From the NCBI RefSeq assembly GCF_009749465.1, contig NZ_WBIS01000008.1, positions 62,001 to 126,000 of the forward strand: a stretch of DNA of 64,000 nt, written 5' to 3'. The notes beneath the pieces were generated by a model, which worked only from the letters and a program-made list of their open reading frames with translations, was not told the DNA's origin and searched no databases. The position numbers were made by a program, and so were the translations under genes. Each line of letters starts with the position of its first letter. Within the stretch, counting starts at the first letter, position 1. This DNA comes from Agromyces terreus (GTDB taxonomy: Bacteria; Actinomycetota; Actinomycetes; Actinomycetales; Microbacteriaceae). Positions 9,836 through 20,761 of this stretch are shown piece after piece.

Positions 9836-11311
9836 CTACTGCAGCGCCGAGGTGAGCCGCGCGAGGTTGTCGAGCACCGTCGAGCGGATCGGCTGCCGCA
9901 GCCACTCGTCGAGCGTGAGCTCGCGGCTGTCGGTGCGGTACCCGTCTTCGACCGAGCGGAGCTCCTCGACGAAGGAACGCCCACGCACGAGGAGGGAGAC
10001 CTCCATGTTGAGCTCGAACGAGCGGATGTCCATGTTGCTCGAGCCGATGACCGCGACGTCGTCGTCGATCGTGAAGTGCTTGGCGTGCAGGATGTACGGC
10101 GCCTTGTACATGTAGATCTTGACGCCCGAACGCAGGAGCGCCTCGTAGTAGGAGCGCTGCGCGTGGTAGACGAGGGCCTGGTCGCCGATCTCGGAGACGA
10201 AGAGCTCGACGTGCACGCCCCGCTGCGTGGCACCGCTGATGGCCATCAGCATCGCCTCGTCGGGCACGAAGTACGGGCTCGTGATGATGAGCCGCTCCTT
10301 CGCCGCGTACAGCAGCGCCAGGAACAGGCGGAGGTTGTTGCGGCTCGGATAGCCGGGGCCGCTCGGCACGACCTGGCAGTCGAGGTTCTGCGCCTCGGCC
10401 GGCTGCTCGAAGGAGTCCGAGATGTCGCGGGTGAGCTCTTCGCCGGACTCGAGGTACCAGTCGGTGCGGAAGATGGCGTCGAGGCCCGACACGATCGGCC
10501 CCTCGACGCGGGCGACGAGCTCCTTCCACTTCAGCCCGCGACGGATGTTGCCGCGCTTGTTGTAGCTGCGGTCGATCATGTTCTGCGACCCCATGAACGC
10601 GACGTCGCCGTCGACGACGAGGATCTTGCGGTGGTTGCGGAGGTCGGGGCGCTGGTACTTGCCCTTGAACGGCTGCACCGGCAGCATGAGGTGCCAGTCG
10701 ACGCCCATCTTCGTCAGCCGGCGGAGCGTGCGCCGATAGCCCTTCGATCGCAGCGACGCCACGTGGTCGAGCAGCAGGCGCACCGTGACCCCGCGCTCGA
10801 CGGCGTCGCCGAGCGCGTCGAAGAACGGCTCGGTCGTGTCGTCGAGCGCGAGGATGTAGAACTCGACGTGCACGTAGCGTTCGGCGCCGCGCACCGCGTC
10901 GGTCATCTGGTCGAGGGAGTCCTGATATCCGCCGATGAGGCTCGCGCTGTTCGACCCGATGAGGGGCATGGCCCCGAGGTTGCGGTTCAGCTGCACGACG
11001 CCCGCGAACCACGAGGGCCAGCCGCGCGAATCGCTGACGCGCTCGAAGCCGTGCGTCGAGTCGCGGATCACCTCGTCGACCTGGGCCTGCTTGCGGCGGC
11101 GCTTCTTCGGCAGCTTCGGATTGCCGATGAGGAGGAAGAAGAGCACGCCGAGGTACGGGATGAAGAAGATCGCGAGCAGCCAGGCCATGCCCGCCGTCGG
11201 ACGGCGGTTGCGCGGCACGACGATGATCGCGACCACGCGGATGACGAGGTCGATCGCGAGCAGCGCGAAGGTCACGATCGCCGTGACCATCGCGGTCTGC
11301 TCCGACGTCAT
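9836..11311 (-). CDS. cls: Cardiolipin synthase, phospholipase D type
   Basis: Membrane enzyme that makes cardiolipin by phosphatidyl transfer. 491 residues. Seen: two N-terminal transmembrane helices (MVTAIVTFALLAIDLVIRVV; WLLAIFFIPYLGVLFFLLIG), then two PLD domains with complete HKD motifs, HRKILVVDGDVAFMGSQN (about residue 225) and HAKHFTIDDDVAVIGSSN (about 405). The upstream 66-residue gene ends 5 nt before this start, so the two are co-transcribed. Confidence 0.92.
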   Translation of the reverse strand: MTSEQTAMVTAIVTFALLAIDLVIRVVAIIVVPRNRRPTAGMAWLLAIFFIPYLGVLFFLLIGNPKLPKKRRRKQAQVDEVIRDSTHGFERVSDSRGWPSWFAGVVQLNRNLGAMPLIGSNSASLIGGYQDSLDQMTDAVRGAERYVHVEFYILALDDTTEPFFDALGDAVERGVTVRLLLDHVASLRSKGYRRTLRRLTKMGVDWHLMLPVQPFKGKYQRPDLRNHRKILVVDGDVAFMGSQNMIDRSYNKRGNIRRGLKWKELVARVEGPIVSGLDAIFRTDWYLESGEELTRDISDSFEQPAEAQNLDCQVVPSGPGYPSRNNLRLFLALLYAAKERLIITSPYFVPDEAMLMAISGATQRGVHVELFVSEIGDQALVYHAQRSYYEALLRSGVKIYMYKAPYILHAKHFTIDDDVAVIGSSNMDIRSFELNMEVSLLVRGRSFVEELRSVEDGYRTDSRELTLDEWLRQPIRSTVLDNLARLTSALQ

Positions 11312-11316
11312 CGAGG

Positions 11317-11517
11317 TCAGTCGGCGGTGCGTTCGGCGCCGAGATCGGGGCGGCGCTCGAGCCCCAGCTTCGCGCGCTCCTCGGCCTCGATCTGGGCGTA
11401 CGCGGCACGCTCCGTGCGGTCGGCGCGCAGGATCGACCGCATCACGAACCAGAAGATGAGTCCGATGAGCACGGTCGGCGCGAGCGACCAGATCGCATTC
11501 GCCCAGAAATCATTCAT
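11317..11517 (-). CDS. Small membrane protein upstream of cls
   Basis: 66 residues: one hydrophobic helix (APTVLIGLIFWFVMRSIL) followed by a charged, helical cytoplasmic tail (RADRTERAAYAQIEAEERAK). Function unknown. The 5-nt gap to cls implies a shared transcript and perhaps a partner role. A TATCCT box lies 8 nt before the ATG. Confidence 0.75.
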   Translation of the reverse strand: MNDFWANAIWSLAPTVLIGLIFWFVMRSILRADRTERAAYAQIEAEERAKLGLERRPDLGAERTAD

Positions 11518-11525
11518 AGGCCTTC

Positions 11526-11531
11526 AGGATA
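11526..11531 (-). promoter_or_regulatory. -10 box of the small protein-cls operon (TATCCT)
   Basis: TATCCT on the minus strand with 8 nt to the ATG; near-leaderless. Confidence 0.45.
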
Positions 11532-11597
11532 CGCGGTTCGGCTGGGAATGCGGATGTCGCGGCATCCGCCCGTATCAGGCCGGGCACGAAACCGTTG

Positions 11598-11616
11598 CCA
11601 TTATGTTACGTAATGG
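11598..11616. promoter_or_regulatory. Palindromic operator before lysR
   Basis: CCATTA-N7-TAATGG with perfect 6-bp arms, containing the T-N11-A arrangement typical of LysR-type regulator sites. It sits in an AT-rich patch (11600-11640) that contrasts with the GC-rich surroundings and overlaps the expected -35 position of the lysR promoter, as expected for autoregulation. Confidence 0.65.
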
Positions 11617-11631
11617 AAACAAGGATTTATA

Positions 11632-11637
11632 TAGCCT
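11632..11637 (+). promoter_or_regulatory. Leaderless -10 box of lysR (TAGCCT)
   Basis: TAGCCT, 6 nt (TTCGCT), then ATG; an overlapping TATATA lies 4 nt earlier. It probably drives the whole lysR-transporter-peptidase operon. Confidence 0.55.
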
Positions 11638-11643
11638 TTCGCT

Positions 11644-12792
11644 ATGCAGCGCCCAAACGCAGACCTCGAGTCACTCACGCGAGCCCTCGACCTGCACAGC
11701 CTGCGAATCCTCTCGGCGATCGAACGCACCGGCTCCATCAGCGGCGCGGCCCGTGACCTGGGCTACTCGCAACCGGCGATCACCCAGCACCTCCAACGCC
11801 TCGAGGCCCGCATCGGCGCGCAGCTCGTGAACCGCACCGGCCGCGCGGCTCGGCTCTCGCCCGCGGGCCAGCTGCTCGCGCGCCACACCCCCCGCATCGA
11901 GGCGAGCCTCACGGCCGCCGCCGCCGAGCTGGCCGAGGTGCTCGGGCGGCGCGCAGACTCCCTCCGCATCGCCGCCTTCCCCTCCGCGCTCGCGGGCGTC
12001 GTCGCCCCGCTGCTCGCCCGCCTCGACCTCGAGGCCCCCGACGTCGACATCGACATCGTCGAGGCCGACACCGATCAGGCGCTCGCCCTCGTGCGCGACG
12101 GCCGGGCCGACATCGCCGTGCTGAGCACCCCCGCCGGAGCGCACGCACATGCCTCGCACGTGCGCCGCGAGGGCCTGCGCAGCAGCTTCCTCTTCGCCGA
12201 CGACGTGCTCGCCGTGGTTCCCGCGAGCTTCCGGGGCGACCCCGGCGCCGCGGAGGCGCTCGGCGACGCGGCGCCCGGCGGAGCGAGCGCATCGACGGTG
12301 GCCGGCGGCAGCCGCGTGGGCATCGAGGCCCTCGCGGACCTCCCGTGGATCGGCGGCGCGGCGACCTGCACGGCGCAGGCCGCCGACGCGGCGACCGCGC
12401 GCGGCATCGCCCACACCGTGGCGTTCGAGGTGACCACGCCGCAGGCCGCGCTCGCCCTCGTCGACCGCGGGCGGGGCGTCGCCTTCCTCTCGACCACCGC
12501 CCTGCACTCGGTCGCCCTGCCCGAGGGCGTCCGCGTGCTCGGCCTCGCCCCGCGCATCCGACGCCGGGTGCTGGCCGTCTCGCTCGCCGAGTCCGCGTCG
12601 ATCCCGGCCATCGCCGATGCCCTGCGCCTGCTCGCCGGCCGGCCCGCGGTCGCCCCCGCGCTGCTCACCCTCATCACCCCCATGCACCCGGTGTCGCACA
12701 GCCACCGGACGCGCCTCAGCAGTGCGCCCTTCCGCACCGCCTTCGGCGCACCCGCCACGACCACCCCGCACCTCGAACTGGAGACCGCCGAC
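11644..12792 (+). CDS. LysR-family transcriptional regulator, no stop codon of its own
   Basis: Probable regulator of the downstream peptide transporter operon. Seen: an N-terminal winged helix-turn-helix (LHSLRILSAIERTGSISGAA, SQPAITQHLQRLEARIGAQL, residues 16-75), then a LysR substrate-binding domain (SLRIAAFPSALAGVVAPLL to about residue 335). After this come roughly 50 residues of unstructured Pro/Thr/His-rich sequence. The reading frame does not stop: it continues in frame into the substrate-binding lipoprotein, and the other two frames are also open here, so a single indel would not reveal a stop nearby. The boundary given is the ATG of the next gene. Confidence 0.75.
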
Positions 12793-14394
12793 ATGCCCTC
12801 GACCACCCTCACTCGCGGAGCGCGCGCCGGCGCTGCCGCGGCCGGCGTGCTGCTGCTCGCAGCATGCACCGCCGGCTCCCCCGCCGACGCGCCCGCCGTC
12901 GACAGCGGCGCCGAGATCGACTCGATCACCGTCGCCCTGCCCGGATCCCTTTCGAACCTGTACGTGGGTCAGGAGAGCGGCATCCTCAACTACTACATCG
13001 CGTCGATCACCCAGGAGGGCCTCGTCTCGGTCGATGCAGACGGCAAGCTCCAGCCCGGCCTCGCCGAGTCGTGGACCCAGCCCGACGACGTGACCTACGT
13101 CTACGAGCTCCGCGACGACGCCGAGTTCCAGGACGGCACGCCGGTCACCGCCGACGACGTGGTGTTCAGCCTCGAGCAGGCGCGCGACGAGACCAGCTCG
13201 CCCGGCCTGTCGTACTACCTCGGCGGCGTCGACACGGTCGAGAAGACCGGCGACCACGAGGTCACCATCACGCTCGCCGCTCCCGACGCCGCCTTCGCCG
13301 CGAACATGAGCACCGGCGGCGCCGCGTTCATCACGTCGAAGGCGTTCTGGGAGGCCAACGACGGCGCGGTGGGCACGAGCAGCTCGCTGCTGCTCGGCTC
13401 CGGCCCGTACGAGGTCACCGAGTTCGTGCCCGACTCGCACGTGAGCTTCGACCGCGTCGACACCTGGTGGGGCGAACTGCCCAAGGTCAAGCACATCGAC
13501 GTGCAGTTCATCCCCGACGAGAGCACGCGCCTGCTCGCCGCCCAGAAGGGCGACGTCGACGTCGCGTTCAACGTGCCGCTCGCCCAGTCGACCCAGTGGG
13601 AGAACCTCGACGGCATGCGCGTCGACTACGTGAACGACCTCTCGTACGTGGGCCTCTACTTCAACACCGCCATCGAGCCGTTCGACGACCCCAAGGTGCG
13701 CGAGGCCTTCGCGCACAGCGTCGACCGCGACGCGATCGTCGACAAGCTGCTGCGCGGCCACGGCGAGGCCGCGACCGCGATCGCGACGCCCGAGTCCCTC
13801 GGTTCCGTCTACTCCGCCGACGAGGCCCGCGACCTGCTCGCCGAGACGCCGCAATGGGACTTCGACCTCGACGCGGCCAAGGCGGCGCTCGCGGCATCCG
13901 ACCACCCCGACGGCTTCGAGACCGAGATCCTCACGCCGAACACCGGCCCCCAGCTCGGCACGGCCGCGCAGTCGCTCGCCGAGAACCTCGCGAAGATCGG
14001 CATCACCCTCACCGTGCGCGAGGTGCCCATCGAGGAGTGGCTCGCGAGCCTCGAGCCCGACGCCGAGTACGGCGTGGGCATGATGTGGTACTTCTCGACG
14101 CTCGGCGACCCCGCCGAGGTCTCGAGCTACATGCTCGGCGCCGACAACGTGTCGAACTACGCCAACCCCGAGATCGACGACCTGTTCGCGCAGGCCGGCG
14201 CCGAGTCCGACCCGGCGACCCGTATCGACCTCCTCCTCGAGGCCGAGAAGCTGCAGGCCGAAGACGTCATCAACGTGCCGCTCTGGTGGGGCCAGTCGGC
14301 GACCGCGTTCGCCGACGACCTCGGCATGGACGACTACTCCTCGTTCGCGTTCATCTCGGCCTGGCCGACGACCCTCTACCGCATCGCCGGCTGA
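12793..14394 (+). CDS. ABC transporter substrate-binding lipoprotein, peptide family (SBP_bac_5)
   Basis: Surface-anchored binding protein of a Dpp/Opp/Nik-type importer. 533 residues from the internal ATG. Seen: signal peptide TRGARAGAAAAGVLLLAAC with lipobox LAAC (Cys25). The family core includes LQPGLAESWTQPDDVTYVYE, LRDDAEFQDGTPVTADDVVF, the VREAFAHSVDRDAIVDKLL region and C-terminal NYANPEIDDLFAQAG. GGAG 9 nt before the ATG suggests internal initiation, which the signal peptide also requires. It overlaps the next gene by 1 nt (TGATG). The ligand could be oligopeptide, dipeptide or a metal complex; the peptidase in the operon favours peptides. Confidence 0.88.
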   Translation: MPSTTLTRGARAGAAAAGVLLLAACTAGSPADAPAVDSGAEIDSITVALPGSLSNLYVGQESGILNYYIASITQEGLVSVDADGKLQPGLAESWTQPDDVTYVYELRDDAEFQDGTPVTADDVVFSLEQARDETSSPGLSYYLGGVDTVEKTGDHEVTITLAAPDAAFAANMSTGGAAFITSKAFWEANDGAVGTSSSLLLGSGPYEVTEFVPDSHVSFDRVDTWWGELPKVKHIDVQFIPDESTRLLAAQKGDVDVAFNVPLAQSTQWENLDGMRVDYVNDLSYVGLYFNTAIEPFDDPKVREAFAHSVDRDAIVDKLLRGHGEAATAIATPESLGSVYSADEARDLLAETPQWDFDLDAAKAALAASDHPDGFETEILTPNTGPQLGTAAQSLAENLAKIGITLTVREVPIEEWLASLEPDAEYGVGMMWYFSTLGDPAEVSSYMLGADNVSNYANPEIDDLFAQAGAESDPATRIDLLLEAEKLQAEDVINVPLWWGQSATAFADDLGMDDYSSFAFISAWPTTLYRIAG

Positions 14395-15386
14395 TGACCG
14401 TCACCACCCCTCGAGCGCGCGCATCGCGAGCCCGGCCCCTCGGCCGGATGCTCGCGGTGCGCGTGCTCGGCATGCTCGCGATCCTGCTGGTGCTCTCGTT
14501 CATCGTCTTCTCGATGATGTACCTGGCACCCGGCGACCTCGTGAAGACGTTGCTCGGCAACCGGCCCGCCTCCCCCGAGGCGGTCGCCGCGATCCGCGAG
14601 CAGTACCACCTCGACGACCCGTTCCTCGTGCAGTACTTCACCTGGCTGGGCGGGGTGCTCACGGGCGACCTCGGCGAGTCGATCCGCCTCCAGGTGCCCG
14701 TGGCCGACGCGATCGCATCGCGCCTGCCCGTCACCCTGGCGCTCTGCGCCGTCGCGTTCGTGCTGGCCCTCGCGGTGTCGATCCCCCTCGGCGTCGCGAG
14801 CGCCGTGCACGCGGGCCGGCCCGTCGACCGGGTCGGCAGCGCGCTCGGCATCGTCGGGCTGAGCGCGCCCACGTTCGCGGTGGGCCTCCTGCTGCTCTAC
14901 GTGTTCGCGTACTACGTGCCGATCTTCCCGGTCTACGGGGCCGGCGACGGCGGGCTCGACACGCTCTACCACCTCGTGCTGCCGGGCATCACGCTCGCGC
15001 TCGGCCTCGGCGCCATCGTGCTGAAGCTCACGCGCACCGCGCTGCTGCGCGAACTCGACGCCGACTACGTCACCTCGGCACGGGCCCGCGGCATCGACGA
15101 CCGCGTCGTGCACCGTCTGGCGCTGCGCAACGCGCTGATCCCCATCGTGACCGGCGCGAGCCTCGTGCTCACCTTCCTCGTCGGCGGCACCGTGCTCGCC
15201 GAGACCACGTTCGCGCTGCCCGGCATCGGCCTGCTGCTGCAGGACTCGGTGCTGTTCAAGGACATCGCGGTCGTGCAGGCGCTGACGCTGCTCATCGCCG
15301 TGGCGATCGCGGTGATCGCGCTGCTCGCCGACCTCGCCTACCTGCTGCTCGATCCGCGCGTCCGCGCGAAGGGGGTGCCCGCATGA
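14394..15386 (+). CDS. ABC transporter permease, DppB/OppB type
   Basis: First membrane subunit of the importer; 330 residues with an N-terminal helix (VRVLGMLAILLVLSFIVF) and about six helices. Seen: the family opening MYLAPGD, then PEAVAAIREQYHLDDPFLVQY, LPVTLALC, and the ATPase-contact EAA-like loop VTSARARGIDDRVVHRLALR. It overlaps the neighbours at both ends (TGATG upstream, ATGA downstream), indicating translational coupling. Confidence 0.93.
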   Translation: MTVTTPRARASRARPLGRMLAVRVLGMLAILLVLSFIVFSMMYLAPGDLVKTLLGNRPASPEAVAAIREQYHLDDPFLVQYFTWLGGVLTGDLGESIRLQVPVADAIASRLPVTLALCAVAFVLALAVSIPLGVASAVHAGRPVDRVGSALGIVGLSAPTFAVGLLLLYVFAYYVPIFPVYGAGDGGLDTLYHLVLPGITLALGLGAIVLKLTRTALLRELDADYVTSARARGIDDRVVHRLALRNALIPIVTGASLVLTFLVGGTVLAETTFALPGIGLLLQDSVLFKDIAVVQALTLLIAVAIAVIALLADLAYLLLDPRVRAKGVPA

Positions 15387-16261
15387 GCACGAGCACCACC
15401 GCGCGTGCCGTCGTCGACGGCCCCGTCGGCGTCGAGTTCCGCTCGAAGCACCGGGTGCCGATCGTCGTGGCCATCTCGCTCGGGTTCCTCGCGATCGTCA
15501 TGTTCTTCGTCGTCGCGGCACCGTTCCTCGTGCCGAACGCGACGGAGCAGGACATCCTCTCGAGCCTGCTCCCGCCCGGCACCCCCGGGCATCCGCTCGG
15601 CACCGACGAGCTCGGCCGCGACATCCTCGCCCTGACGATCGCCGGGGCGACCTCGGCGCTCGTGGGGCCCTGCATCGTCGCCGTCGGATCGATGCTCATC
15701 GGCGTGCTGCTCGGCACCGTCGCCGGTTACGAGCGCGGCTGGGTCGACTTCCTCGTCAGCCGTTGGACCGACCTGCTGCTCGCCCTGCCCGTGCTGCTCG
15801 CCGCCATCGTGGTGGCGGGCGTCTTCGGCGGCGGCTACTGGACGACGACGCTGCTGCTCATCGTGCTGTTCTCGCCGTCCGACATCCGCATCGTGCGCGC
15901 GGGCGTGCTCGAGCAGTCGGCGCGGCCGTACATCGAGGCGGCGCAGATGCTGTCGCTTTCGCGGTGGCGGGTCATGTTCCGGCACATCCTGCCGAACGTG
16001 TCGACGCTCGTCATCACGAACGCGATGCTCAACGTGGCCTTCGCGATCGTCGCGTTCTCGTCGCTGTCGTTCCTCGGCGTCGGCGTGCCGGCCGGCACCG
16101 CCGACTGGGGGCGCCAGCTCACCGACGCGCGCTCCATCATGTTCGACAACCCGGCTGCGGCGATCGTGCCCGCGCTGCTCATCATCGCGGTCGCGTGCGC
16201 CGTGAACCTCGTCGGCGACTGGCTCGGCCAGCGCCTGACCCGCACCGGAGGTGTCGCATGA
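15383..16261 (+). CDS. ABC transporter permease, DppC/OppC type
   Basis: Second membrane subunit; 292 residues. Seen: the N-terminal helix, the family hallmark HPLGTDELGRDILALTIAGA, the EAA loop RPYIEAAQMLSLSRWRVMFR followed by HILPN, and the C-terminal DWLGQRL. It starts and ends with ATGA overlaps, so the four transporter genes are read as one translational unit. Confidence 0.93.
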   Translation: MSTSTTARAVVDGPVGVEFRSKHRVPIVVAISLGFLAIVMFFVVAAPFLVPNATEQDILSSLLPPGTPGHPLGTDELGRDILALTIAGATSALVGPCIVAVGSMLIGVLLGTVAGYERGWVDFLVSRWTDLLLALPVLLAAIVVAGVFGGGYWTTTLLLIVLFSPSDIRIVRAGVLEQSARPYIEAAQMLSLSRWRVMFRHILPNVSTLVITNAMLNVAFAIVAFSSLSFLGVGVPAGTADWGRQLTDARSIMFDNPAAAIVPALLIIAVACAVNLVGDWLGQRLTRTGGVA

Positions 16262-17895
16262 CCGCGGTCTCGATCCACGCCCGCGGCCTGACCGTGCTCG
16301 CGCCCGACGGCCGCACGATGGTGCAGCCGCTCGACCTCGACCTCGTCGGCGGCGAGACCGTCGCCCTCATCGGCGAGTCGGGCTCGGGCAAGACGCTCAC
16401 CGCGAAGTCGCTCATCGGCCTGCTGCCGCCCGGCTTCCGCGCACAGGGCGAGGTGCGGTACGGCGAGCAGGCCTTCGAGCTGTCGATGCCGGATGCCGCG
16501 TGGCGGCCGTTGCGCGGACGCACCGTGTCGCTGCTGCTGCAGGACCCGTTCACGAGCCTCTCGCCCGTGCACCGGTGCGGCGAGCAGATCGCGTGGACCA
16601 TCGAGGCGGCCACCGGTCGACGCCTGCGCGGCGCGGCCCGCACGTCGGCCATCGCCGCGCGCCTCGCCGAGGTGCGTCTGCCCGAGCGCGTCGCCCGCGC
16701 CTACCCGCACGAGCTCTCGGGCGGCATGCGGCAGCGCGTCGCGATCGCGGCGGCCCTCGCGAGCGACCCCGTGCTGCTCATCGCCGACGAGCCCACGACG
16801 GCGCTCGACGCGAGCAACCAGGCCGAGATCCTCGACCTGCTGCACGGCATCCAGACGGCGCGCGGCATGGCGGTGCTGCTCATCTCCCACGACCTCGGGC
16901 TCGTGCGCGGCCGCACCGACCGCGTGCTCGTCATGCGCTCGGGCGAGATCGTCGAGCGCGGCGACACGGCCACCGTGCTCGCCGCACCCGAGCACGCGTA
17001 CACGCGCGCCCTCATCGAGGTCGACCCTGCCATGCGGGCGCTCGCGGCCGACGACGGCTCGACCGCCGACGGCTCGGCCGACGACGGCTCGACACCCGCC
17101 CTCGCGGCGGGCACCGACCGGCCGACGGCTGTGCTCGAGGCATCCGGCATCGTCAAGCGATTCGGCGAGCGCACGGTGCTCGACGACGTCTCGATCGCGC
17201 TCCGCCCGGGCGAGGTCACGGGCGTCGTCGGCGAGTCGGGTTCGGGCAAGAGCACGCTCGCGCGCTGCATCGCCGGCCTCGAGCGCGAGGACGGCGGCGA
17301 GATCCGGTTCGAGGGCGTCGTGCTCGCCCCCGGCCGCGGCTCGCGCACCCCCGCGCAGATGCAGATCGTCTTCCAGGACCCGTACTCCTCGCTCAACCCG
17401 ATGATGTCGATCGGGGCGATCCTGCGCGAGGCGCTGCACGTCGCGCGCCGGCCCGCGGCCGACGTGGCCGTGCTGCTCGAGACCGTCGGGCTTCCGGCCG
17501 ACTTCGCGGGCAAGCGCCCGGCCCAGCTCTCGGGCGGGCAACGGCAGCGCGTGGCCATCGCGCGCGCTCTCGCGCCGCGCCCCAGCGTGCTCATCTGCGA
17601 CGAGTCGGTCTCGGCCCTCGACGTGTCGGTGCAGGCCCAGGTGCTCGCCCTGCTCGCGCAGCTGCGCGACGAGCTCGGTCTCGCGATCCTGTTCATCTCG
17701 CACGACCTGGCCGTGGTGCGCGAGATCGCCGACACGGTCACCGTCCTCTGGGACGGCCGCGTCGTCGAGCAGGGCGAGTGCGCCCGCGTGCTCACCGCCC
17801 CCGAACACGAGTACACCCGGCTGCTGATCGCGGCCGGCCGCCGCGAGAACCCTCGCGCCGCGGCATCCGATCTCGCCTCGAAAGGAACCCGGTGA
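16258..17895 (+). CDS. ABC transporter ATPase with two nucleotide-binding domains (DppD-DppF fusion)
   Basis: Energises the importer; 545 residues comprising two fused ATPases. NBD1: Walker A GESGSGKT (about residue 39), signature LSGGMRQRVAI, Walker B LLIADEPTTALD, switch LLISHDLGLV. NBD2: Walker A GESGSGKST (about 325), signature LSGGQRQRVAIARA, Walker B VLICDESVSALD, switch LFISHDLAVV. The linker between them (about 260-290) is a low-complexity Asp/Gly/Ser repeat encoded by CGACGGCTCG units. The CX-rich C-terminal segment of some DppD proteins is missing, consistent with fusion. The next gene overlaps by 4 nt (GTGA). Confidence 0.93.
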   Translation: MTAVSIHARGLTVLAPDGRTMVQPLDLDLVGGETVALIGESGSGKTLTAKSLIGLLPPGFRAQGEVRYGEQAFELSMPDAAWRPLRGRTVSLLLQDPFTSLSPVHRCGEQIAWTIEAATGRRLRGAARTSAIAARLAEVRLPERVARAYPHELSGGMRQRVAIAAALASDPVLLIADEPTTALDASNQAEILDLLHGIQTARGMAVLLISHDLGLVRGRTDRVLVMRSGEIVERGDTATVLAAPEHAYTRALIEVDPAMRALAADDGSTADGSADDGSTPALAAGTDRPTAVLEASGIVKRFGERTVLDDVSIALRPGEVTGVVGESGSGKSTLARCIAGLEREDGGEIRFEGVVLAPGRGSRTPAQMQIVFQDPYSSLNPMMSIGAILREALHVARRPAADVAVLLETVGLPADFAGKRPAQLSGGQRQRVAIARALAPRPSVLICDESVSALDVSVQAQVLALLAQLRDELGLAILFISHDLAVVREIADTVTVLWDGRVVEQGECARVLTAPEHEYTRLLIAAGRRENPRAAASDLASKGTR

Positions 17896-18998
17896 GCCAG
17901 GTATCCACCGCCCCCACCACCCTCGACGCTCCAGCAGCCGTGCCCGCCGGAGCGCCCGGGTGGGAGCCCGACGCGTGGCTGCGCGACTTCCTCGGGGCGG
18001 AGCGCACCGCGTTCTGGCAGCGTTCGCGCACCCCCTACTCGCCCACCGTGCACGTCGAGCGCGCGGCCGACGGCGAGCCGCTCGCCGCGGTGCTCACCAC
18101 GCGTCGGCCGAGCACCGCCGCGGTCAAGATCGTCGAACTGCACCACACGGATGCCGCGGCGGCCCGCCGCGCGATCGAGCACGTCGTCGCCGACTCGGCC
18201 GAACGGGGCGACGCCGCCGTGAAGTGGGAGCTGCGCGGCGAGACCGCCCCGCCCGCGCTCGCCGCCGAGCTCGGGTTCGCACCGATGCGCGCGCCGCACC
18301 CGTCGGCCGACGGCACCGTCGGGGTGCGCGGACTCGTGCGCTGGCACCGGCCCGTCCCCCACGACGAGGCGCCGTACTACGGGCAGACCACGCTCTACAC
18401 CTGCGGCGCGGTCGCGGGCCTGCTCGCGGCGACCCTCGCCGGGGCGTCCGGCTTCACCGGCGATGCCGGAGACCGCGACCTCGAGTTCGCCTTCTGGCGC
18501 CGCGCGAGCAACTACCCCGCATGCGAGCCCGTGGGCCTCGCCGTCGCGATGCGCGAGACCGTGGGCGAGGGCCGCACGGTCGAGGTGCACCTCGACACCG
18601 ATGAGCCCGTGCTGCTCGAGGAGTACACCGGGTTCGAGCACGACTTCCGTGCCGAGCTGCAACAGGAATCCCGTCGGCGGGCCGCCGCGCTTTCGGTGCC
18701 GGTCGTCACCGAGCGCATCGCGATCGACGAGGTCGTCCGACGCATCGCCGGCGGCGAGTCGGCGCTGCTGCTCATCGACGAGGCGCCCATGCACGGCGAG
18801 ACCGGGCCGCACTGGGTGCTCGCGCACGCCGTCGTTCCGGGCGAAGCGGTCGTGCTCATCCAGGACCCGTGGATCACGTCGGAGCGCGGCGAGACCTGGG
18901 TCGACACGCACGATCTCCCCGTCGCGGCATCCGACCTCGACCGCATGATCGCGTGGGGGCCCTCGGCGACCCGCGGCGTCGTCTTCGTCGGACGCTGA
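17892..18998 (+). CDS. GNAT-like plus C39-type cysteine peptidase fusion (DUF3335-like)
   Basis: 368 residues, no signal peptide, so cytosolic. The first half (about 40-140) has an acetyltransferase-like pattern: AAVKIVELHHTDAAAARRAI, then AELGFAPM, though no clear acetyl-CoA loop is seen, so it may be degenerate. The second half is papain-like: YYGQTTLYTCGAVAGLLAAT gives Gln165 and Cys171, GPHWVLAHAV gives His307 or His313, and IQDPW gives Asp325. This order matches the C39-like family (PF11814, from memory). The gene ends a translationally coupled peptide-transporter operon, suggesting it trims imported peptides or amide conjugates. Substrate unknown. GTG start, GTGA overlap; an earlier in-frame extension would run through the ATPase gene. 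Confidence 0.75.
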   Translation: MSQVSTAPTTLDAPAAVPAGAPGWEPDAWLRDFLGAERTAFWQRSRTPYSPTVHVERAADGEPLAAVLTTRRPSTAAVKIVELHHTDAAAARRAIEHVVADSAERGDAAVKWELRGETAPPALAAELGFAPMRAPHPSADGTVGVRGLVRWHRPVPHDEAPYYGQTTLYTCGAVAGLLAATLAGASGFTGDAGDRDLEFAFWRRASNYPACEPVGLAVAMRETVGEGRTVEVHLDTDEPVLLEEYTGFEHDFRAELQQESRRRAAALSVPVVTERIAIDEVVRRIAGGESALLLIDEAPMHGETGPHWVLAHAVVPGEAVVLIQDPWITSERGETWVDTHDLPVAASDLDRMIAWGPSATRGVVFVGR

Positions 18999-19023
18999 GC
19001 GGCGGGCGGGCGGAACGGCTCGG

Positions 19024-19048
19024 CTCAGCTCAGCTCAGCTCAGCTCAG
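19024..19048. repeat. CTCAG pentamer repeat, 5 copies
   Basis: Five perfect CTCAG units end inside the last codons of the 47-residue gene and include its stop. Because the stop comes at the edge, slippage would not change the protein. Confidence 0.9.
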
Positions 19049-19188
19049 GTGAGCAGGCCCCAGATGCCCGACCCCAGAAGGTAGGCGCCGATCGCCCCGA
19101 CGACGATCCAGATCGCGAGGCGGGCGTTCGACGGGCGCTTGGGGTCGGGCTCGGGCTCGAGTTCGCTCTTCGGGAGGTAGTCGTTCAT
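19045..19188 (-). CDS. 47-residue single-helix membrane protein
   Basis: MNDYLPKSELEPEPDPKRPS, then one transmembrane helix (RLAIWIVVGAIGAYLLGSGI) and a short end WGLLT. The acidic/proline N-terminus would face the cytoplasm. It lies 31 nt after lysS and is probably the last gene of that transcript. Similar tiny proteins follow lysS-like genes in relatives only as far as I can guess; function unknown. Confidence 0.65.
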   Translation of the reverse strand: MNDYLPKSELEPEPDPKRPSNARLAIWIVVGAIGAYLLGSGIWGLLT

Positions 19189-19219
19189 CTGCGGCATCCG
19201 CTCGTCTCGGTTCGGGCCG

Positions 19220-20761
19220 CTACTTGACGAGCGGGAAGAGGATGGTCTCGCGGATGCCGAGACCCGTGAGCGCCATGAGAAGGCGGTCGATGCCCATGCC
19301 CATGCCGCCCGACGGCGGCATGCCGAACTCGAGCGCGCGCAAGAACTCCTCGTCGAGGCGCATGGCCTCGGGGTCGCCGCCCGCGGCGAGCTTCGCCTGC
19401 TCGACGAAGCGCTCGCGCTGCACGACGGGGTCGACGAGCTCGGAGTAGCCGGTGGCCAGCTCGAAGCCGCGCACGTAGAGATCCCACTTCTCGACCACGC
19501 CGGGCGTGCTGCGGTGCCCGCGCACGAGCGGGGAGGTGTCGAGCGGGAAGTCCATCACGAAGGTGGGCCGTTCGAGCCCGCCCTTGATGTGGTGCTCCCA
19601 CAGCTCTTCGACGTACTTACCGGGCAGGGGGTGCTCGACCTCGACGCCCGCCTCGTCGGCGAGCTGCTTCAGGCGCTCGATCGGGGTCTCGGCCGTGATC
19701 TGCTCGCCGACCGCCTCGGAGAGCGTGCCGTACATCGAGATGCGGTCCCACTCGCCGCCGAGGTCGAACTCGGTGCCGTCGGCCCAGGTGACCACGTGCG
19801 AACCGCTCGTCTCGAGCGCGGCGTCTTGGATGAGGCGCTGCGTGAGGTCGGCCATGGTCGTGTAGTCGCCGTAGGCCTCGTACGCCTCAAGCATCGCGAA
19901 CTCGGGGCTGTGCGTAGAGTCGGCGCCCTCGTTGCGGAAGTTGCGGTTGATCTCGAACACCCGGTCGATGCCGCCGACCACGGCGCGCTTGAGGTACAGC
20001 TCGGGGGCGATGCGCAGATAGAGCTCGGTGTCGAACGCGTTCGAGTGGGTCACGAACGGACGAGCGGATGCCCCGCCGTGCATGACCTGGAGCATGGGCG
20101 TCTCGACCTCGACGAACCCGAGCCCGGCGAACGTGCGGCGCAGGCTCGCGTTGGTCTTGGCGCGGTCGAGCACGTTCTTGCGCGCCTGCTCGCGGGCGAT
20201 GAGGTCGAGGTAGCGGCTGCGCACCCGGGTCTCTTCGCTGAGGTCGTTGTGCAGGTTCGGCAGCGGCAGGATCGCCTTGGACGCGATCTGCCACTCGTTC
20301 ACCATGATCGAGAGCTCGCCGCGGCGGCTCGTGATGACCTCGCCGGCGACGAACACGTGGTCGCCCAGGTCGACGAGCTCCTTCCAGTCGGCCAGCGACT
20401 GCTCGCCGACCTCGGCGAGCGAGACCATCGCCTGCACGCGGCTGCCGTCGCCCGACTGGAGGGTCGCGAAGCAGAGCTTGCCCGTGTTGCGCGAGAACAC
20501 GACGCGCCCCGCGAGGCCGACCTGCTCGCCGCTGGCCTCGTCGACGCCGAGGCCCACGAAGCGGTCGCGCACCTGCGGGATGGTCGTGGTGATCGGCAGG
20601 CGCACCGGATAGGCGCCGCCGCCGAGGTCGTCGGAAGCCGCGATCAGCCGCTCGCGCTTGGCGAGCCGCACGACCTTCTGCTCGGAGATCTCGGCCGCGG
20701 TGGGCTCGTCGGCGGGCTGTGCGGCACCCTGGGGGGCGGCATCCGTCTGGGTCTCGGCCAT
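19220..20761 (-). CDS. lysS: Lysyl-tRNA synthetase, class II
   Basis: Charges tRNA-Lys; 513 residues. Seen: an N-terminal Ala/Glu-rich extension (about 25 residues), an OB-fold anticodon-binding domain (VGLAGRVVFSRNTGKLCFAT), class II motif 1 GFVEVETPML, motif 2 FRNEGADSTHSPEF, and motif 3 GMGMGIDRLLMALTG near the C-terminus. Actinobacterial gene order (panC then lysS) is kept, but with a 74-nt gap, so it likely has its own promoter. Confidence 0.96.
   Translation of the reverse strand: MAETQTDAAPQGAAQPADEPTAAEISEQKVVRLAKRERLIAASDDLGGGAYPVRLPITTTIPQVRDRFVGLGVDEASGEQVGLAGRVVFSRNTGKLCFATLQSGDGSRVQAMVSLAEVGEQSLADWKELVDLGDHVFVAGEVITSRRGELSIMVNEWQIASKAILPLPNLHNDLSEETRVRSRYLDLIAREQARKNVLDRAKTNASLRRTFAGLGFVEVETPMLQVMHGGASARPFVTHSNAFDTELYLRIAPELYLKRAVVGGIDRVFEINRNFRNEGADSTHSPEFAMLEAYEAYGDYTTMADLTQRLIQDAALETSGSHVVTWADGTEFDLGGEWDRISMYGTLSEAVGEQITAETPIERLKQLADEAGVEVEHPLPGKYVEELWEHHIKGGLERPTFVMDFPLDTSPLVRGHRSTPGVVEKWDLYVRGFELATGYSELVDPVVQRERFVEQAKLAAGGDPEAMRLDEEFLRALEFGMPPSGGMGMGIDRLLMALTGLGIRETILFPLVK

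Follow-up and report, generated by a model that had tools for sequence, protein, structure and literature searches.

In a 64,000-nucleotide (nt) window of the Agromyces terreus genome (contig NZ_WBIS01000008.1), we found that the gene of a LysR-type regulator and the gene of a solute-binding lipoprotein make up, as read from the DNA, one uninterrupted and conserved coding frame. This frame heads an operon, entirely on the plus strand, that continues with two permeases, a double ATPase and a protein of the family DUF3335. The conserved LysR-lipoprotein fusion is the more unusual feature of the operon and goes beyond an earlier, sequence-only reading: the importer parts, their order and their overlaps of 1-4 nt stood as listed there, but lysR is not the separate gene it was given as, since no stop codon occurs until 14394. 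The open reading frame (ORF) starts at ATG 11644 and runs stop-free to 14394, across the lipoprotein start at 12793 (916 codons):

11644..12792, plus strand: LysR-type part with tail and linker and no stop before the lipoprotein (Pfam: HTH_1 at residues 17-76, LysR_substrate at residues 103-331)
12780..12783, plus strand: GGAG, a Shine-Dalgarno-like site 9 nt 5' of the internal ATG, read directly
12793..14394, plus strand: solute-binding lipoprotein SBP_bac_5 (Pfam E 4.8e-84), with the internal ATG and a lipobox at Cys408 of the fused ORF

Both Pfam domains of the LysR family, HTH_1 and LysR_substrate, were matched, and the gene does not end after the effector domain as a stand-alone one would. 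As a control we used the ten LysR_substrate genes of the genome (eleven matches, two of them within one frame). Eight of the others lie in open frames of 316-394 amino acids (aa), which by frame length, the only measure used for them, leave no room for a second protein, and the remaining one lies in a 962-aa open frame that is accounted for by upstream non-coding sequence, with a stop 4 codons past the domain. Only the gene at 11644 was found joined to its neighbour.

The uninterrupted LysR-binding-protein ORF is present in the window and 36 other genomes, hence in 37 (the window, 34 named loci, L143 and L145), which span five groups: Agromyces, Salinibacterium, Microbacterium, Demequina and Mycobacteriaceae. 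In the first seven Agromyces relatives lysR likewise runs without a stop into the lipoprotein, and the full ORF was found in 9 of 60 Agromyces genomes, our own included. The named loci come from the best 80 of 470 DUF3335 relatives, with distant relatives lying outside this coverage; 42 of the 80 are of the Opp/Nik type. Thirty-four of these 42 are fused, L045 is frameshifted, three (L042, L043 and L076, counted among the 42) are cut by contig ends before lysR, L075, L077 and L078 have no lysR in the stretch, and L084 has a divergent, separate LysR. In L045:3804-6493 (Demequina sediminis) the frameshift, from either a sequencing error or decay, falls within the LysR effector domain, and a stop-free frame runs from the tail through the linker into the binding protein. 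The fusions in L143 and L145 turned up in whole-genome searches made without DUF3335 as query. All nine full-length fusions from whole-protein searches without a DUF3335 query end in DUF3335 (seven of these nine are from genomes already among the named loci), as do seven other full-length relatives from the whole-protein search. A sequencing or assembly error as the origin of the fusion was ruled out by its occurrence in 37 genomes from five groups.

Between the conserved LysR tail and the lipoprotein ATG lies a linker of 12-43 codons, which comes in ten distinct lengths and stays in frame in 37/37 genomes. Within groups of close relatives, the linker differs by 0.076/0.064/0.212 at codon positions 1/2/3, a coding pattern (pairs of unequal linker length are excluded from this comparison), and LysR itself by 0.095/0.056/0.342. 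The nonsynonymous/synonymous codon ratio is 0.18 for the tail, and LysR (0.45) and the linker (0.68) lie above it; by this measure the protein sequence of the tail is more strongly constrained than that of LysR. The tail consists of a basic motif, mostly ARRRSxxHRARF (e.g., in L063, L056 and L037), from which Salinibacterium, L050 and the window deviate, and it may act through membrane-side charge, DNA contact or in another way. Across the tail plus linker of the 34 loci, 184 of 1040 codons are one change away from a stop, and the number of stops is 0.

The internal start is conserved as well. The lipoprotein ATG is kept in 34/34 relatives, 23-28 codons ahead of the lipobox Cys, and so is the lipobox (34/34), with Cys408 invariant in a 30-row alignment; over these 30 fusion rows, Pfam matched HTH_1 in 30 and LysR_substrate in 25. 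The Shine-Dalgarno site reads AGGAG(G), 6-9 nt upstream, in 22 of the 34 relatives, GGAG in 1 and a weaker GAAGA in 4. Seven Salinibacterium-type loci (L055, L060-L062, L065, L068 and L101) have no clear Shine-Dalgarno sequence by the pattern used, and the two products may be made there in another ratio. As the frame is continuous, translation from the lysR ATG, unless it breaks off early, must yield a LysR-linker-lipoprotein fusion; since the lipoprotein has retained an ATG and a lipobox of its own, in most cases with a Shine-Dalgarno site, two products are to be expected, the free lipoprotein and the full-length fusion.

LysR-type regulators belong to the largest families of regulators in bacteria and count as soluble sensors in the cytosol. 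Here, the arrangement suggests a membrane-tethered LysR with the importer's own binding protein as its sensor, one gene yielding the free and the fused form, a tentative reading whose chances we put somewhat below even. The same observations could mean that there is a nested start and nothing else. The lipoprotein would then be made from the internal start, and signal peptidase II would cleave the LysR read-through product at the lipobox, or this product would be tolerated as a by-product; LysR would end up separate with a short membrane tail, and the shared frame would serve coupled expression without sensing. The ATG and lipobox in 34/34 relatives and the mostly present Shine-Dalgarno-like site do resemble an ordinary lipoprotein gene. 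However, a missing stop is not needed for coupling alone, the genes further down the operon manage with ordinary 1-4 nt overlaps, and a stop-free, frame-keeping linker in 37 genomes together with codon periodicity suggests that the joined product matters; we consider this explanation rather unlikely.

In the structure model of the fusion (predicted local distance difference test, pLDDT, 66.1; predicted template modeling score, pTM, 0.44), residues 345-421 form a linker with pLDDT <50 and a helix at the signal segment, flanked by two better-predicted halves. The nearest solved structures to the binding protein are mixed and include AgaA, YliB, DppE/DppA and NikA, among others.

A further possibility is a cytosolic sensor in the manner of SgrR, in which the long form would ignore the signal segment and sense the imported substrate inside the cell; the short form would be exported. 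The ligands that LysR regulators respond to are normally cytosolic, which fits, and a C-terminal SBP_bac_5 domain on a DNA-binding protein, as in SgrR, is present in the window ORF and the fusion rows. On the other side, the SgrR_N DNA-binding domain, which we take to be PF12793, had no Pfam match in the window ORF (E up to 1) or in the 30 fusion rows (E up to 0.001). The two halves are also separated by an intact lipoprotein signal; we consider this possibility improbable. SgrR and its homologue DsvR of gamma-proteobacteria, known regulators with a helix-turn-helix (HTH) domain on a family-5 (SBP_bac5) binding domain (PMC13060122), are nonetheless the nearest known design, sharing the fusion of a DNA-binding domain to a family-5 solute-binding domain. 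They differ from the Agromyces fusion, in which a complete LysR (HTH plus effector domain) is followed by a linker and by a lipoprotein signal that has a start of its own, and in which the binding half is the binding protein of the importer operon itself. Among the titles and abstract openings listed in our literature searches, none describes a LysR fused to a solute- or substrate-binding protein.

The region ahead of the fused gene contains two elements:

11598..11616, plus strand: palindrome CCATTA-TGTTACG-TAATGG, read directly and likely a LysR box (T-N11-A)
11628..11643, plus strand: -10-like TATATAGC and start region, probably of a leaderless transcript

The palindrome ends 27 nt before the lysR ATG. 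By eye, a related element (of the kind ATATTGTTACnCCATCGAAA) lies similarly far from the ATG in other Agromyces and in most Microbacterium, and TATAG, AATAG or GATAG precedes the ATG by about 9 nt in Agromyces and in most Microbacterium and Demequina loci; the promoter regions of Salinibacterium and Mycobacteriaceae differ. From this layout we infer that the operon is autoregulated and that the lysR transcript is probably leaderless.

Downstream of the fused ORF, the remaining genes follow without gaps, the overlaps from the lipoprotein through the permeases and the double ATPase to the DUF3335 gene being 1, 4, 4 and 4 nt:

14394..15386, plus strand: inner-membrane permease 1, Opp/Nik B type (PF00528, E 1.2e-34)
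15383..16261, plus strand: inner-membrane permease 2, Opp/Nik C type (PF00528, E 3.7e-30)
16258..17895, plus strand: fused double ATP-binding subunit (two ABC_tran stretches, E 6.7e-58)
17892..18998, plus strand: DUF3335 protein of 368 aa with a GTG start (Pfam PF11814, E 7.5e-43)

The Pfam set of an Opp/Nik importer is thereby complete (SBP_bac_5, two BPD_transp_1 and two ABC_tran). The Nik equivalogs scored below their NCBIfam cut-offs (NikA 159.2/600, NikB 222.7/447 and NikC 182/358.45 bits), and permease 1 reached 282 bits with the Opp2B model against a cut-off of 350. The double ATPase lies above the NikD and NikE cut-offs, with whole-protein scores that sum two domains. Lipoprotein, two permeases and two ATPase domains are common to importers of the Opp/Dpp/Nik type; unlike those, the ATPases here form one chain, the binding protein is the tail of the regulator, and DUF3335 comes next.

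The terminal protein scores 146.9 bits with PF11814 (cut-off 25), and all of the 45 aligned members match this model. Gln165, Cys171, His307 and Asp325, which the sequence-only reading had picked out as the pattern of a C39-like peptidase, lie at exactly these positions; of the aligned proteins, 45/45, 45/45, 45/45 and 44/45, respectively, retain them, so that Cys and His are invariant among the relatives. The sole exception at Asp325 is L070:9998-11056 (Microbacterium fluvii), where Glu replaces it. The division into an acetyltransferase-like and a C39-like half was borne out by structure prediction as well (pLDDT 93.6): residues 10-154 match GNAT folds and residues 157-368 match papain-like C39/phytochelatin-synthase folds. 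Cys-His-Asp, the oxyanion Gln and the fold place the protein in the papain-like C39 superfamily. It does not belong to the C39 leader peptidases of ATP-binding cassette exporters (PF03412), as it has no transporter domain and its neighbors are importer parts; Peptidase_C39_2 (PF13529) had no match in the Agromyces terreus genome. The papain-like domain might also be a transferase that conjugates the imported compound, as in phytochelatin synthase, which is among the matched folds; this, too, appears improbable to us.

The acetyl-coenzyme A (CoA) loop motif of GNAT proteins is [QR]xxGx[GA] between beta4 and alpha3. At this position (residues 74-96) it occurs in 0/45 proteins; elsewhere in the GNAT-fold half the pattern is found in 17/45. 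Pfam GNAT models gave no match in the DUF3335 protein of the window at E up to 1, and two of them match one member each of the 45 (E 0.038). With the CoA-loop motif missing in 45/45, acetylation by the DUF3335 protein is unlikely, and the acetylation on entry that had been suggested for this enzyme finds no basis at the motif's position. A search with phmmer up to E 10 returned no solved structure of a DUF3335 relative, and the DUF3335 profile gave four short matches to solved structures (E 0.9-1.5). Fusions of GNAT and DUF3335 have already been mentioned in print (PMC10318531). The published GNAT/C39-like proteins share the family DUF3335 (PF11814) with the protein described here, which is set apart by a GNAT half without the CoA motif and by its importer-operon context.

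DUF3335 is directly behind an importer in 76/80 best relatives, of which 42 are of the Opp/Nik type and 34 of the Fhu type. Neither importer is directly upstream in L069, L072, L102 and L105; in L102 a short stretch resembling FhuB lies on the opposite strand. In a class-wide even sample of 394 genomes, 11 hold DUF3335, all 11 behind importers: our own genome, 8 of the Fhu type and 2 of the Opp type without LysR. The linkage of DUF3335 to importers is thus strongly supported by gene neighborhood (76/80 and 11/11), in agreement with the proposed tie of this gene to transporters; import followed by cytosolic processing is likewise supported as gene linkage.

Of the 34 Fhu-type loci, 33 have AraC, FhuC, FhuD and a fused FhuB, and L114 has FhuD and FhuB only. 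The permease of L085 passes the FhuB model NF007867 (895.8 vs 849 bits); its binding protein and ATPase are Fhu/Fec-like, with scores below the model cut-offs. The AraC-FhuCDB-DUF3335 loci of Streptomyces and Nocardiopsis resemble our operon in the order of regulator, importer and then a DUF3335 protein about 40-47% identical. They differ in having AraC and not a LysR-lipoprotein fusion, and an importer of the ferric-hydroxamate type. For an AraC-FhuC-FhuD-FhuB-DUF3335 locus, no description was found among the titles and abstract openings listed for C39 and siderophore transport. Weak iron-box candidates (<=5 mismatches) were seen as one site between araC and fhuC in L085, L110, L111 and L080; the Fhu-type loci L086, L091 and L095 had none.

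As DUF3335 is common to ferric-hydroxamate-type and peptide/nickel-type importers, the imported compound may be a chelator or conjugate that the cell opens after uptake. An imported chelator appears at least as likely as a peptide, and the substrate would probably be a metal-chelating or otherwise conjugated amide compound. The sequence-only reading had a specific imported peptide or conjugate trimmed, and perhaps acetylated, on entry; we took it up as a general peptide importer, the last enzyme of which trims and acetylates the imported peptide. The Opp/Nik-family parts, the GNAT and papain folds and the kept catalytic residues are compatible with this, but the CoA-loop motif is absent in 45/45 and DUF3335 also stands behind ferric-hydroxamate-type importers, which leaves this version very improbable.

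Taken together, these features would fit a self-regulated uptake-and-processing operon with a two-product first ORF, a chelator-type substrate and cleavage by DUF3335, a reading to which we give an even chance. The free lipoprotein from the first ORF would feed the importer, and the LysR-binding-protein fusion would be made too, probably in smaller amount. The internal signal segment would anchor the fusion in the membrane, leaving LysR on the cytosolic side and the binding domain on the outer side (or docked on the permeases), and binding or transport would alter the action of LysR on the box 27 nt ahead of its own start. The DUF3335 protein would then cleave the imported compound in the cytosol, its GNAT-fold half holding the compound for cleavage. 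Protein products, their location and the substrate are inferred here. If true, the LysR-lipoprotein fusion with its preserved internal start would link binding outside the cell to a promoter through a single gene. DUF3335, an uncharacterised family, is consistently placed here behind importers of two unrelated types.

Several points weigh against the tethered regulator and the chelator operon. Tethering requires that the internal signal segment is recognized, and signal peptidase II could cut there; the model of the fusion is only of moderate confidence. The chelator substrate rests on the neighbors and on a Nik/Opp resemblance below family cut-offs (NikA 159 vs 600 bits), and an iron-box scan (<=5 mismatches) of five fused-type loci, L037, L047, L055, L066 and L045, found no site close to the operon. 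The fused rows are related and cluster on the binding-protein tree, where the fused/separate label needs three changes and the long-branched Gulosibacter L077, which has no LysR, falls inside the fused group (L045 is labeled fused despite its interrupted ORF, and L042 separate though the contig ends inside the gene). Letter-shuffled tail plus linker stayed stop-free in 62% of trials per locus: high-GC DNA is poor in stops, so that a missing stop in one genome would mean little, and the argument therefore rests on the 37 genomes, the frame-keeping indels and the codon periodicity. An annotation artefact of stop-poor DNA was considered in view of this shuffle rate and rejected on the frame-keeping indels and the codon periodicity.

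In the surroundings of the operon, the upstream neighbor at 9836-11311 is a PLD, cardiolipin-synthase-like gene (by eye), and the gene on the other flank was read as lysS. No Rfam family, riboswitches included, reached its gathering score across 11200-19300. Plasmid records gave a single match, to the binding-protein half only (E 1e-100), and the PADLOC models had no match for the fusion or the DUF3335 proteins. The Fhu-type loci (L079-L083, L085-L100, L103, L104 and L106-L116) are mostly from Streptomyces, with some from Nocardiopsis, Streptomonospora and others. One of them, L083:2975-6193, has DUF3335 and a stretch resembling FhuB (query residues 2-417 only) in one open frame of 1073 codons, from a deletion or a fusion. 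The Agromyces genome of L016 holds a divergent second importer-DUF3335 operon (L022:6343-12745, G024), with a DUF3335 protein 33% identical and no LysR match. The order of the Agromyces terreus operon recurs at the same genomic place in 7 further Agromyces genomes and in L145.

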